From: an uncultured Acidobacteriia bacterium
GTDB lineage: Bacteria; Acidobacteriota; Terriglobia; Bryobacterales; Bryobacteraceae
Assembly: GCA_903875575.1 (NCBI GenBank)
Contig: CAIQWJ010000083.1
Coordinates: 1-64,000 of the forward strand
Reading direction: 5' to 3'
Length of the DNA stretch: 64,000 nucleotides
Part shown: piece after piece, positions 44,887 to 51,570 of the stretch
How positions within the stretch are numbered: position 1 is the first letter of the stretch
How the letters are laid out: each line of letters opens with the position of its first letter
Made by a program: the position numbers and the translations under genes
The notes under the pieces: model-generated
Database searches by the model: none
Told to the model about the DNA's origin: nothing
Seen by the model: only the letters and a program-made list of their open reading frames with translations

Positions 44887-47800
44887 ATGACAGGAACAAA
44901 AGTAGCTTTGTTGTTGCTGGCATCGTTGCCGCTATTTGCGCAGATCGATAACGGCAACATTACGGGTCGCGTAACCGACGGCACCGGTGGTGTCATCGCC
45001 AATGCCAAGGTCACGCTGATTCAAACCGAGACAAATTTCGAGACCGCCGCAACCACGAACGGCGAAGGTATTTACCGCGCCCTCAGTCTGCGTCCGGGGC
45101 CGTATCGGATCACCGTGTTTTCCCGGGATTCAGGAAGACGGTCCGCGACAGCGTCGACCTGCGGATTAATTCCACGCTTGCCGTGGATTTTGCCCTGGAA
45201 GTGGGTGCTGTCACCGAATCGGTGGAGGTGAAAGGAACCGCTCAATTGCTGGACACCCAGACTTCCTCGAGCGGCACCACCGTGGATGGAGATTTTTTCT
45301 ACGAGCTGCCGAACTACCAGCGGCACGCAACGGCGGTTTTGTTTTTTACGCCCGGGGTTACGATCGCTTCAAACCAGGGCACCAAGGGCCTGTTTGGAAC
45401 CATAGACGGCATCGGTAGCAGCCAGATGGCCTACTTCGAAGACGGCGTCCTGGCGAGCTTTGGAGGTCGAGGTACGGGCCAGTCGGAAACCGTGGATAAC
45501 AGCATCGAAGAAATCAAAGTCTTCACATCAGCGATGCCTGCGGAATACGGCCACTCAGCTGGCGTTGGCGTCTCCGTTGTAAAGAAATCCGGCACCAATG
45601 AGATCCATGGCCTGCTTTCCGATCAGTTCCGCACGCGCAGCATGCAGCAACGCCGCTTCTTCGATCAGTACCGCAATTCGCAGAGCCAGCCGGGCTTCCT
45701 GATCAATCCGCCCCCGCTCATTGTCCAGAATCCGGATGCCAACTTCAGCGGCCCGGTCTATATTCCAAAGATCTATGACGGCAAGAACAAGACCTTCTTC
45801 TTTTACGGCATGCAGATGCTGATCGAGAAGCAGGGTAAACAGCTTTTCGCGACTGTTCCGACGACCGCTATGCTGAACGGCGATTTTAGCTTCGCCGGAT
45901 CGGGCGTGACGCCTAATCAGATCTACGACCCCGATACCACCGCCGTTGTAAATGGAGTCTGGAGCCGCCAGCCTTTCATCGGCAATATTATTCCAAAGTC
46001 CCGTTGGAGCAAAGTGGCCACAACTTTTCTGGGACTGAATCCTATTGGCGCGCCTAATGTCCCCGGTTCGTGGACCAACACCGGTCCGTCGAACAACGTT
46101 CAGCTTGGGCCCATGAAGATCACGATGTATCATTCGCACACGGCGCGTATCGACCACCAGTTCACGCCGAAAATCAAGGCATTTACTACATATACTTATA
46201 ACCAGGAATGGGGGAGACAGCCCCCGCTGGCCATCACCAATTCCCTTTTCGACAGCACCCTGAACAAAGGCATTACTTACCGCAACACCGGTTCCGTGGG
46301 GGCGACATGGATTGTGAACCCGACGACGGTCAACGACATCCGCCTGAACTACTATTCGACGGACATAAACAATTCATCGATAACGCTCAATAACAATTAC
46401 GCTGCGCTGATCGGCTTAGGGTCCGCGGGCCTGCCATCGACTTGTCTGCCGGGCGTGATTCCCGGTTTGATCACGGATCAGGGAAATCTGTCTCCTGGTT
46501 GCGGCAGCAGGACCGTGAATGAAAACTATACCTTTAAAGACGATCTCAGCAAGTCAAAGGGTGCTCACAGCTTCAAAATGGGTTACGAACTGCTTCGGTA
46601 CCACTCGAATGCGAACAACGGCCCGGGTAACGTGGATGGTTCCTTCACTTACTCCGGCGTCGGCGGACTGCAGGCCAACGGAACCGCGATAGCCAATACA
46701 GGTGGCATCACCCTGGCGCAGTTTATGACCGGTGACATCAGCAGTTTTAGTTTCAGCCAGACTACCGACAACCTTTATACGCGGTCCCGGCAGCACAGCT
46801 TCTATTTCCAGGACGACTGGAAGGTTAGTCGCACCCTGACCCTGAACATGGGAGTACGTTATAACGTCGAACCGCCCAAAACCTATCTGGGCGGCTACAT
46901 CAGCTTGTTCGACCTCTCACTGCCCGACAATTCGACTTACACGAATACAGCCTACCTGCCGTTCTGCCCGAAGGGCGGCTGCATGGGTGCCTACACCCAT
47001 CCCAAGGACGGTACCCCGTTCGATACCGACTGGCGCCGCATTGACCCGACCCTGGGTCTCGCGTGGAGCGTCTCACCGAAGATGGTGATCCGCGCCGGCG
47101 CCCGCCTTTCGCACCTCGATACCTTCTCCGACGGCACGAGCCTGATTTTCACCAACGAACTTCTGGCCAAGACGTCTGCCACGTATAGCCAGGTTTCGGG
47201 CAACTTCGCGCCCCTCTTTAACCTCAATAACGGAATACCGGCGTGGGCCTACACGGCTCTGCGAGGGGATGGTTCCGCACCGACTGTTTCCACCAACGCC
47301 GGCAGCGTCAGCCCAACGATCGTCCCGAGGAATATCAAGACGCCGTATGTTGCAACCTGGAACATCGCCATTCAGCGGCAACTGGGCAAGAAATCCATGG
47401 TGGAGGTCCGGTGGGAAGGCTCGGTCGGCGTGAAGGGATACGGAAGCATCAACATCAACACCTTGCCCACGGGAATCATTCCCAGCGCTAACCATGACGG
47501 CACGACGATCAACCTGAACGATCCTGCCAACGCTCTTTACCGGTATCAGTGGGCAAGCAACTCGATTACGTCGTACCAGACACAATATGCCCGGCCATAT
47601 CCCAACCTCGGGAACATCAGCGTAGTCTGCAATTGTGTCCATTCGGACCATCACGCCGGCATCGTGAGTTTCCAGCAGAGGCTGACGAAGGGGCTGAGTT
47701 TCCAGGGCTTCTACACCCTCTCGAAATCGATGGGGATGAGCAGCACTACGAACCTCAACCCGTATATGGACTGGCACCTTTACAAGGCACGCCAGGGCTC

Positions 47801-48515
47801 GGATCAGACGCACAACTTTACGGCGACTATGAATTATCAACTCCCGGTAGGAAAGGGCCGTCAGTTCCTCGGCCACAGCAATCGCGTGGTCAATGCCATT
47901 CTCGGGGATTACAACCTTTCGTGGACCTATACCATCGCTTCCGGGCAACCGGCCGGCATGAGCATCAGCGGGGTTTCCTTACCGAGTTACACGGCTGGTG
48001 GTTCCACCTTCACCAACATCAACGTGCCGCAATATCCAGGTTTCATGCCGACCTACGGCAACGGCTTGATCCTGCTGCAGAGACCCTCCCTTCGCGACAG
48101 CTGGCAGGATCTGGGTGGCGACCGGTTTACTCAGGCGAACCAGAACAGCATGATCAATTGCGGCCAGACGATCGTAAATTATGGGAACAGTTGCTTCACA
48201 TATGCGCCCGCGTTCACCAATGGGAACGCGGGTGCCAATGTCTGGGACAACCAGAGAATAATTGCGGCCAGCCTCGCGATGTACAAGGAGATTCCGCTGC
48301 ATGATCGGCTGCACCTGCAGTTGCGCCTGGACATGCAGAATCCGTTCAAGTGGTACAACTGGAACGGCCCCAGCACAAGTCTGAACGTCCAGAGCCTCGC
48401 TAACGCTGCGACTTTTGGTAAGATAAATCCCGCAAATTACGGTGAGACCCAAACCGGCACACAGGGATATGGCGGTGTTGCGCTGCTAAATATGACCGTG
48501 GCGCTGAAATTCTAG
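44887..48515 (+). pseudogene. Oar-like TonB-dependent receptor, single frameshift near the N-terminus
   Basis: The start at 44887 has a good ribosome-binding site. It gives signal peptide MTGTKVALLLLASLPLFAQ and a carboxypeptidase-regulatory-like domain (GNITGRVTDGTGGVIANAKV, GIYRALSLRPGPYRITVF). The frame then fails: after VFS it should read PGFRKTVRDSVDLRINSTLA, found in another frame, and then continues as the 1110-aa ORF listed from 45183 (VGAVTESVEVKGTAQLLDTQ, plug, barrel, terminal VALLNMTVALKF). One missing C in the run at 45122-45124 explains it. Restored length is about 1,210 residues, normal for acidobacterial receptors of this kind, which are thought to import or bind glycans or other large nutrients. 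If real, the shift abolishes the protein. Confidence 0.88.
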
Positions 48516-48625: not shown

Positions 48626-50218
48626 TTACCGGGTGACACCGACCACGCGGCCATCATGGACGTAAACCGTCAACTGATGACTGCCGTCTCCAATATCCGC
48701 CGCTAAATAGCCGGCGATGCGCGGGACCGCCAATGTCGACGGGACATCCAGGGGGGACTTCTTGTCTGTATCGTTGTCATAGCGTGACCAGACCACGCTG
48801 TAGTGGCCGTTGCCGCCCAGGTCCCTGTAACCCAGGGTGCCTTCGCGTACTTCGAAACCATCCAGCGGCAGCGTCTTCGCGAAGTAGTACGCGGCGATTT
48901 TGTCCCGGCGAATGACCAGCGTATGAACGATGGCGTCCACGGTCTTTGGATCGGAATACTGGCCGGAGCGGACCAGGGCGGCAAGCTGGTCGTCCGTGAA
49001 GGCCTTGATTTGTTTCGCTGCCCAAAAGCAGTCGGCCACGGTGCGGTTGTCGAAGGCTGGATTCGGGTAGGTCGGCTTCCAGGCGGCGGGATCGAAGGTG
49101 TCGCTCACGAAACGGCCAGCGCCAGGGAGAATTCTTGGGTGCGTCCGTTCCCACTTGGGCGAATAGGCCCCCAGTGTCAGCAATTCCCGAAGGCCCCAGC
49201 GGAGATCGACTGCGTAAGTATGTCCTTCCCAGGCCTCGTCGGGTCGCAGACTGGCGCTGCCGAACGAGGAGCCGAAATCGGTCAGGAAGTGGCGCACGCG
49301 ACGGATGCCATCGATTGACTGGATGGTGTCGAGCGTTCCCAGTGTTCGGGTATCGGCGTGATCCAGCCAGGCACTGAAGACAAATAACGCCCGGAGAACG
49401 CGGCGATGATCATGGGGAAAAATGTCGTTGGGATCGTCGTCGCGGGTGCCGGCGTAGCTGAAAGGGCCGAGGAGTTCGCCGTCCACCAAACGGCTGGCGA
49501 GGGCGCGCCAGGTGCCGTCCGGATATCTGGTGACGAGCGAGAGCAGGTGATCCACATCGGACTCCCGGAGGGTAACCCGCTGTCCGTCGCGAAGGTAACG
49601 GATGTTGGAACCAATGCGCAGCTGACGGCGGTCAAAGCGGACGGCGTAGTTATCCGGGACGTTGTAGCCGATGGCGTGCAGGATATGGGAGCCGGCAACG
49701 TCGGCACCGGTCGTGCGTTCCGGGTAGCCTTTGGGGTCAAAGCGGAGGGCAAAGGCGCGCCCGGAAGAGTCCTGGATCCGGAAGATGGGGGTCATCCCCT
49801 CGTTCGCGGCGACAATCGTCCAGGGTTGGTTGACCGTTGGGGGTGCGTTGCCACCAGGGCCGAGCGCCAGTTCGGAATTGGTGAGCGGATGGAGGTCGTG
49901 ACGGTTGGTGTACCAGTCGCTGTCCGGTACTTCGTCGATGGTGTTGATGTCGAGGGCAGGGGCGCGGTTGGTCCGGGAAAGGGTGTCGGCGTTTTTGCCG
50001 GGTTGGTGCAAAGTTTCCTCAACCATGGCACCGGCATCGGTGTGAGTGTCAATTCGCAGCTCACCAACGGAGATGGGGGGCGGTTCCTTCGCGATCGGGT
50101 CATCCGGATAGAAGCGATGCTTCGTGGAGCCGGCGACGGGGAGTATCGACAAGGCGGCCAACAGGAGCAGAAGTGGCCGGGGGGTACTCGCTAGAAAGGA
50201 TTCGAGAAGATGAGCCAA
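48626..50218 (-). CDS. Secreted protein with kinase-like (HipA/PI3K-type) sequence pattern
   Basis: A 530-aa protein with a signal segment (RPLLLLLAALSILPVAGSTK). The mature part has TPIFRIQDSSGRAFALRFDP, a strand pair like the ATP-grasping strands of HipA-type kinases with R in place of the usual K. Later come VFSAWLDHADTRTLGTLDTI, in the position of a catalytic loop with Asp, and RHFLTDFGSSFGSASLRP, which contains a DFG motif. The usual catalytic-loop Asn is not evident, so this may be a pseudokinase. No database match was run; the fold call is my inference. The gene overlaps the BamA-like gene by 28 bp and is probably co-transcribed downstream of it. Confidence 0.6.
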   Translation of the reverse strand: MAHLLESFLASTPRPLLLLLAALSILPVAGSTKHRFYPDDPIAKEPPPISVGELRIDTHTDAGAMVEETLHQPGKNADTLSRTNRAPALDINTIDEVPDSDWYTNRHDLHPLTNSELALGPGGNAPPTVNQPWTIVAANEGMTPIFRIQDSSGRAFALRFDPKGYPERTTGADVAGSHILHAIGYNVPDNYAVRFDRRQLRIGSNIRYLRDGQRVTLRESDVDHLLSLVTRYPDGTWRALASRLVDGELLGPFSYAGTRDDDPNDIFPHDHRRVLRALFVFSAWLDHADTRTLGTLDTIQSIDGIRRVRHFLTDFGSSFGSASLRPDEAWEGHTYAVDLRWGLRELLTLGAYSPKWERTHPRILPGAGRFVSDTFDPAAWKPTYPNPAFDNRTVADCFWAAKQIKAFTDDQLAALVRSGQYSDPKTVDAIVHTLVIRRDKIAAYYFAKTLPLDGFEVREGTLGYRDLGGNGHYSVVWSRYDNDTDKKSPLDVPSTLAVPRIAGYLAADIGDGSHQLTVYVHDGRVVGVTR

Positions 50219-51570
50219 ACCTGTACTCCTTCCCGGCTGATGCCGACGTCGAGCTTGATTGGCGCGCTGTTGCCGCTGCGGGCGCGGAAGCCGAAGCCGA
50301 TATCGCTCATGAAGTGGGCAGAGCTCATATTGTCGACGTCGTGAAAAACCTTGCCCGCGTCGGCGAAAAGCGTCATGTCCAGCAGCGGCATGACGGTCCA
50401 GCGGTACTCGGCGGTGGCGATGACCGAATTCTGGTCGTGGAAGCGGAATGAACTGAAGCCGCGGAGATCGTCGCTGCCTCCCAGATGCGGGCCCAGATAG
50501 AAAGGGACAAACGTATTCTGGTGGGGATCCGTGAGTGAAGCGCGGCCGCGGAAGGCGATGATGCGGCGGTGATTCCAGAACGGAATGTAGAGCTGCGCGT
50601 CGAAATCGTACTGGTTAAACCCACCGAGGGCACGGCGGCGGCCGTTGACGTTCTGGAAGGCCGCCTGAAAGTAGGCTCCGTGGTGCGGATCGGTCGGCTG
50701 GTCGCGGCCTTCGTACTCAAAGAAGAAGCCTCCGGTCAGGAAGCTGGTCTGGCGGTCGATGCCGCGGGCGGTTGCCACGGTGTAAATCGCGTCGGTGGGC
50801 GGGAGGTTGGCGGAAGTGCCGGGGCCAATGGCGATTGCTCGATAGCTGCCGGTGAAGCCGGTCCGTAGGTGGCGGTGGGCGATGATGCCGCCGCGTACTT
50901 CGACGCCGGATTCACGTTGGGAGTAGTTGCTGACGCCGGACTGCACGGAATCCGGCCCGGGACCGAAGTAATTCAGCCTGGTGTATTCATAGCGGTAGGC
51001 ATTCAGGCCGAAGAAGGCGCGGCCTTTGGCGAGACGGGGAAGCAGGACACCGCTCTGGATCCGGTATGATTTGTCGGTGGCGGCGACGGCATAAGTGTCC
51101 CAGATGAGCTGGGGCTGGTAGTAATCGCCTGCCTTGAGCACGTATTCCGGTCCGAGGGCAATCTGGGAACCGATGGACAGGCCCCCGACATTCAGCGACA
51201 ATCCGTGGACCCCGTTCTGGGAGGCGTTCCATGCGGCCAGACCATGGCTGACAAACTGTTCCGCTGCGTTCACCACGGGATTGAGGTGGTGGGGATGGAA
51301 GTGGCTGACCCTGATGTTGCGGGCGGCTTCGATGACCTCCGCGCGGGTTTGGGGTTCCTGGGGGGGATCGGGTTCATCCATCGCAGGCTGGGCCGGAGCC
51401 TGGGCCAGAGATCGGGCGGCGAGGAGGGCCGCCAGCGCAGGCAGTACGAAAAGCATGCGCGCCCGCAACAGCGCGCGCCCCGACCGGACGCCGAAGGCTG
51501 ACGCTGCGCTCCATGGCATGGCACCCGCAGGACGTGCGGCCCGCGTGCTGACGGGTAACGTGGTCGGCAT
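50191..51570 (-). CDS. BamA/TamA-family outer-membrane beta-barrel protein
   Basis: Up to 459 residues; the true start is unclear (51570, 51519 or 51456), since the signal peptide MLFVLPALAALLAARSLAQ lies 38 residues in. The mature part lacks POTRA domains and reads as a 16-strand-type barrel. YLGPHLGGSDDLRGFSSFRF matches the conserved lid-lock loop of the bacterial surface antigen family (PF01103). MTLFADAGKVF, RSGNSAPIKLDVGIS and terminal VWLIFSNPF (C-terminal aromatic) also fit. Proteins of this sort insert or export substrates at the outer membrane. Its neighbour is a secreted kinase-like protein. Confidence 0.85.
   Translation of the reverse strand: MPTTLPVSTRAARPAGAMPWSAASAFGVRSGRALLRARMLFVLPALAALLAARSLAQAPAQPAMDEPDPPQEPQTRAEVIEAARNIRVSHFHPHHLNPVVNAAEQFVSHGLAAWNASQNGVHGLSLNVGGLSIGSQIALGPEYVLKAGDYYQPQLIWDTYAVAATDKSYRIQSGVLLPRLAKGRAFFGLNAYRYEYTRLNYFGPGPDSVQSGVSNYSQRESGVEVRGGIIAHRHLRTGFTGSYRAIAIGPGTSANLPPTDAIYTVATARGIDRQTSFLTGGFFFEYEGRDQPTDPHHGAYFQAAFQNVNGRRRALGGFNQYDFDAQLYIPFWNHRRIIAFRGRASLTDPHQNTFVPFYLGPHLGGSDDLRGFSSFRFHDQNSVIATAEYRWTVMPLLDMTLFADAGKVFHDVDNMSSAHFMSDIGFGFRARSGNSAPIKLDVGISREGVQVWLIFSNPF

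Follow-up and report, generated by a model that had tools for sequence, protein, structure and literature searches.

Exported kinase-fold proteins in Gram-negative bacteria pose the question of where their phosphate comes from; ATP is not expected in the periplasm. We analyzed a locus that raises this question in an uncultured bacterium of the Bryobacterales (Acidobacteriota; contig CAIQWJ010000083.1), the window being the whole stretch of 64,000 nucleotides that was analyzed. An earlier note on this DNA had proposed that the gene of an outer-membrane barrel overlaps that of a secreted protein recalling HipA/PI3K-like kinases. Our best reading, held with somewhat better than even confidence, is that the secreted product belongs to a new family of exported HipA/PI3K-like kinases, as predicted from sequence, one branch of which is obligately tied to an Omp85 barrel. 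With the same confidence, the window locus would be a two-gene operon: a POTRA-less Omp85 barrel, then a Sec-exported HipA/PI3K-like kinase-domain protein. Members of the barrel-tied branch are called type I, and their shorter homologues type II.

The overlapping gene pair and its spread

The features of the locus are as follows.

50191..51570, minus strand: Omp85 (BamA-type) barrel without POTRA, open reading frame of 459 aa
50455..50466, minus strand: Omp85 L6 signature LRGF in the barrel
50191..50218, minus strand: overlap of the barrel gene and the kinase-fold gene, 28 nt
48626..50218, minus strand: kinase-fold protein, type I, 530 aa, TTG start, predicted to be exported and HipA-like
50126..50218, minus strand: predicted N-terminal signal peptide of the kinase-fold protein, approximately residues 1-31, from hydrophobicity across the family
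49619..49822, minus strand: N-lobe, with the Gly-rich segment GMTPIF, beta3 with R159, and alphaC D173
49742-49744, minus strand: R159 codon CGC in beta3, replacing the family Lys
49391..49450, minus strand: family hallmark GTRxDDPNDxxPHxxRRxLR
49337..49360, minus strand: catalytic loop H287-x-D289-x4-N294; the window copy has G294 (GGA) instead of Asn
49271..49279, minus strand: DFG motif, residues 314-316
48629..48856, minus strand: C-terminal beta domain, residues 455-530, for the most part predicted better than the rest of the model (block pLDDT 55-86)

The two genes are co-directional and overlap by 28 bp, as had been claimed (open reading frames 48626-50218 and 50191-51570, both minus strand), and the segments named earlier as kinase-like are all present: ALRFDP (157-162), WLDHADTR (284-291), and TDFGSSFGS (313-321). 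An overlap of the same 28 nt recurs in four relatives (L031, L002, L003, and L004), and the spacing between barrel gene and kinase gene in other relatives is mostly -47 to +39 nt; the pairing and the start of the window genes are therefore real. No phosphatase adjoins the window pair. The end of a TonB-receptor-like gene lies about 110 bp away on the opposite strand. This carboxypeptidase-regulatory/TonB-receptor-like gene itself appears divided into two overlapping open reading frames in different frames (44887-45231 and 45183-48515, plus strand), a split that looks like a frameshift near the N-terminus.

The barrel matches PF01103 (9.4e-16) and NF047779 (1.1e-18), and residues R370, G371, F402, D404, and G406, from the L6 RGF/Y and FxDxG motifs, are invariant in 10 sequences. 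Its description as POTRA-less holds: no POTRA domain is matched, and the 60 or so residues between the signal peptide and the earliest conserved segment of the barrel leave too little room for one. Translation probably begins at Met39 (51454-51456), a start from which a normal signal peptide results. Omp85 barrels without an N-terminal POTRA region make up the "noNterm" group of Heinz and Lithgow 2014 (PMC4104836); the window barrel shares this lack of an N-terminal POTRA, whereas a kinase is mentioned 0 times in that text. The patatin-Omp85 protein PlpD (PMC11116518) is likewise an enzyme tied to an Omp85 barrel. In PlpD, however, barrel, POTRA domain, and lipase form a single fused polypeptide, whereas the present system comprises two genes, lacks POTRA, and has a predicted kinase fold.

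The signal peptide attributed to the window protein is a trait of its family. An N-terminal hydrophobic segment occurs in 48 of 51 type I members, compared with 0 of 22 HipA and 3 of 10 HipA_2 proteins as controls, by a test of hydrophobicity and composition, which is not a trained signal-peptide predictor. In most type I members, the segment is followed by a conserved (K/R)F(Y/x)xDDP, which opens the mature protein.

The family was sought in a sample of 297 Acidobacteriota genomes, all of one phylum; the one genome-wide scan used short exact patterns. Type I relatives gave matches in 52 of the 297 genomes, 50 of them clear, and the two weak matches (G137 and G285) proved to be type II. The barrel protein, used as an independent blind query, likewise matched 52 genomes, 48 of them common to both searches. 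The barrel gene stands immediately upstream of the kinase gene in all 31 two-gene loci first examined, and an Omp85 gene lies directly upstream of 51 of the 55 distinct type I kinase reading frames; the four exceptions are a contig edge, the two halves of one gene split at a contig edge, and a merged frame in which the barrel is present. With these counts, the tie between the predicted exported protein and the barrel is stronger than the earlier note could know. Pairwise distances of kinase and barrel are correlated (mirror-tree r=0.85; permutation maximum 0.20), which could come from vertical descent alone. No third gene is common to all type I loci.

Barrel-only cases, that is, genomes or contigs with a barrel and no detected type I kinase, were also found. 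Barrels of related type have no kinase directly behind them at L157-L161 and L163, so POTRA-less barrels of this kind can occur without a kinase; at L162 and L164, the barrel runs into the contig edge.

Searches of plasmids, phages, and viral contigs returned no relatives, and literature searches found no description of the kinase family or of the kinase/barrel pair. Searched against Pfam, NCBIfam, and PDB sequences, the 530-aa window protein gave nothing significant. This exported kinase-fold family of soil Acidobacteriota, with no Pfam or NCBIfam model, is undescribed. As a variation on its architecture, some type I kinases (L009, L013, and also the long frame in L054) carry about 430 extra residues fused to the C-terminus, in L009 with no Pfam match; the beta3 Lys of these fused kinases is replaced by Arg.

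Kinase homology and the state of the active site

A profile of 51 type I sequences was compared with HipA_2 members of the same phylum. HHalign gave P=94.8 and E=4.9e-8 over 215 columns, in an alignment that covers the beta3 Lys strand, the catalytic loop, and DFG. The score of 69.7 compares with at most 23.8 in 25 shuffled decoys; reversed decoys likewise reached up to about 24, and the unrelated families PTP, PPK1, PLD, and MPE gave HHalign values of 0.1-0.6%. Weak matches to Pfam HipA_2 (PF20613) were found for 13 of 28 type I relatives, over the N-lobe where the match was located. They miss the Pfam cut-off (best relative E=5.8e-4; singly scanned members 13.5-16.8 bits vs 27), and the window protein itself has no PF20613 match. 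A PDB search with a 28-member profile yielded chance matches only, and the HHalign match to HipA_C (PF07804) is weak (P=48 for type I alone, 68 for types I and II together).

The likeness to HipA_2 is one of profile homology over the N-lobe, the catalytic loop, and DFG. HipA_2 proteins recovered here measure about 270-330 aa, and 7 of 10 have no N-terminal hydrophobic segment. Type I is extended by a long N-terminal region and a C-terminal beta domain, and is further set apart by the GTRxDDPND motif, a predicted signal peptide, and the barrel partner. HipA_C toxin kinases differ from type I in that the latter is predicted to be exported and has a barrel partner instead of a HipB-type one. Membership in CotH (PF08757), a known kinase, was rejected, with no Pfam match and HHalign values of 0.7% for type I and 2.1% for type II, as was membership in the eukaryotic-type Ser/Thr kinases (at most about 2%, and below 1% with type I).

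Structure prediction was less informative. Two AlphaFold models, each made from only three sequences, have mean pLDDT values of 40 and 44, which is low confidence; in Foldseek searches with these models, TTK/MPS1 kinases came first and Helicobacter pylori CtkA reached a probability of 0.6-0.7, all at E>=0.12, which is not significant.

The active site can be followed across the 51 type I sequences. The two residues singled out in the earlier note are conserved, the catalytic-loop Asp (D289) in 47/51 and the DFG Asp (D314) in 50/51, and N294 is kept in 49/51, H287 in 45/51, and the beta3 Lys in 40/51. The Lys is lost in the other 11, with E, S, Q, or T instead in several. Residues R259, D261, D262, N264, D265, H269, R273, and R276 of the hallmark motif are conserved in 51/51. 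The sequence supports a kinase reading through conservation of HxDxxxxN, of DFG, and for the most part of the beta3 Lys, and through the HipA_2 match; type I is in this sense a HipA/PI3K-like kinase family. The resemblance first noted in the window is thus borne out by the HHalign comparison, the weak HipA_2 matches of the relatives, and the conserved Asp residues.

Whether a given member is a kinase or a pseudokinase was left open in the earlier note, and the answer divides between family and window copy. The family keeps most active-site residues; the window protein keeps D289 and the DFG D314 but has R159 for the Lys and G294 for the metal-loop Asn. Their codons, CGC and GGA, are at least 2 bases from any Lys or Asn codon, so the changes are not explained by single sequencing errors. 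Because Lys and Asn are lost, weak or no catalysis is likely; the window copy may be a pseudokinase, and probably either has little catalytic activity or, as a pseudokinase, retains a binding or regulatory role. Elsewhere in type I, L069 has lost the beta3 Lys, the catalytic Asp, the Asn, and the DFG Asp together, with a barrel gene still upstream; L069 is likely a full pseudokinase.

A sister subfamily and its phosphate-related neighborhoods

At two loci (L165 and L166), a shorter kinase homologue comes immediately after a related POTRA-less barrel; at L165, this homologue has a lipobox-like signal peptide. A search with the short protein matched 50 of 297 genomes, some only through type I, and showed type II to be present in many of them. 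Profiles of type I and type II are clearly related (HHalign P=99.5, E=2.6e-22). In type II, the beta3 Lys, the alphaC Glu, the catalytic Asp, and both DxG residues are each present in 32/32, and the loop is mostly D-L-K-x-x-N-N (Lys 24/32, first Asn 29/32, second Asn 32/32). Type II is thereby shown to be a sister subfamily of short, predicted exported kinases with a near-invariant active site. A barrel is missing from the vicinity of most type II genes.

Genes of phosphate metabolism recur near these kinases. Exported PTP-like phosphatases occur no more than 5 kb from a type I or II kinase in 13 cases vs 0.24 expected, and type II stands beside DUF4956 in 10 vs 0.04 expected; the expectations assume a mean genome of 5.1 Mb and count related genomes as if they were independent, which overstates the significance, but the enrichment factors themselves are large. 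Type II also lies beside ppk1 in four genomes (G025, G038, G075, and G114), an adjacency confined to one family (f21) and absent from type I. It is type II, rather than barrel-linked type I, that accounts for the polyphosphate contexts and for the majority of phosphatase contexts. Among type I loci, a calcineurin-like phosphoesterase (metallophosphoesterase) with an export signal lies directly behind the kinase at L031, L032, and L050, of which L031 (52% identical) and L032 are Bryobacterales relatives; the window locus has no third gene of this type.

Several arrangements were recorded alongside. L214 and L215 (G114:C27 and G038:C33) have ppk1, a type II kinase gene, and a DUF4956 gene placed end to end or with overlaps of a few bp, and the opposite strand encodes an exported PTP-like phosphatase; ppk1 there is a second copy in the genome. 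At G025:C21:46577-50256, ppk1, DUF4956, and a PTP-like phosphatase occur together with no kinase detected. A PLD-like protein (PLDc_2 in L218) adjoins type II kinases at L216, L218, L219, and L221. The genome that the window comes from carries four genes for CotH-type kinases and, on another contig, one VTC gene (G000:C29, C58, C64, and C23).

A CotH-VTC-DUF4956 cassette has been described for Gram-positive Pel loci (PMC7112168), and a VTC-DUF4956-CotH arrangement is also present in Acidobacteriota. Type II resembles CotH in being a predicted exported kinase in a cassette of polyphosphate synthase and DUF4956; it differs in having ppk1 in place of VTC and no detectable sequence relation to CotH. 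Given these adjacencies and the presence of the CotH cassette in the same phylum, type II seems to occupy a CotH-like slot though not detectably homologous to CotH.

Proposed function and its alternatives

In the mechanism that we propose, the kinase would act outside the cytoplasm, either periplasmic or on the cell surface, and its barrel, which may be anchor, translocator, or client, would keep it at the outer membrane or let it through. It would phosphorylate an envelope or surface component, the donor might be an extracellular nucleotide or polyphosphate, and exported phosphatases would remove the phosphate. Because the relatives keep most active-site residues and often have exported phosphatases as neighbors, extracytoplasmic phosphate transfer may take place; polyphosphate is a donor candidate worth testing because type II sits in a ppk1/DUF4956 setting.

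The operon pairing alone does not reveal the role of the barrel. A somewhat unlikely alternative, compatible with our best explanation, is two-partner-like secretion, with the POTRA-less barrel as dedicated translocator and the kinase-fold protein as surface cargo. Strict adjacency in the order barrel then cargo, the mirror-tree correlation (though shared descent gives the same), and the lipobox-like signal peptide of the barrel-paired L165 speak for it; yet TpsB and TamA translocators carry POTRA domains, most type II kinases stand without a barrel, and no secretion domain was identified. A role without phosphate transfer, in which type I is mainly pseudokinase or chaperone-like and its fold binds a ligand or client for the barrel, is rather unlikely. 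The missing beta3 Lys in 11/51, R159 and G294 in the window copy, and the losses in L069 fit such a role, as does the fact that the most invariant residues are those of the GTRxDDPNDxxPH motif rather than the Lys, but a wholly inactive family would hardly have preserved the DFG Asp (50/51), the catalytic Asp (47/51), and the Asn (49/51) this well.

Another chemistry on a kinase-like fold, such as AMPylation or polyphosphate-dependent transfer, is unlikely too. SelO is a kinase-fold enzyme with a different chemistry, and both a location where ATP is scarce and a sister subfamily beside ppk1 and DUF4956 would suit this idea; against it, type II keeps a D-L-K-x-x-N-type loop and DxG, and ppk1 adjacency is limited to f21 and not seen for type I. 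That the kinase resemblance is spurious, the protein being an unrelated exported enzyme or binding protein, is very improbable: the window protein has no Pfam, NCBIfam, or PDB sequence match and its models are of low confidence, but the profile match lies well above decoys, the motifs are in order, 13/28 relatives match HipA_2, and type II is homologous.

Beyond the preferred reading of an exported kinase family with one barrel-tied branch lies a broader and doubtful proposition: that Acidobacteriota carry out extracytoplasmic phosphorylation with one branch on a POTRA-less Omp85 and the other, by convergence, in a polyphosphate/DUF4956 cassette where it replaces CotH; the phosphate might be drawn from polyphosphate instead of ATP, and exported phosphatases would undo the modification. 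With type I, a POTRA-less Omp85 barrel gains a constant partner, a predicted kinase-fold protein. The presence of two kinase families unrelated in sequence (type II and CotH) in equivalent cassettes, with exported phosphatases nearby, makes extracytoplasmic phosphorylation and a polyphosphate donor directly testable.
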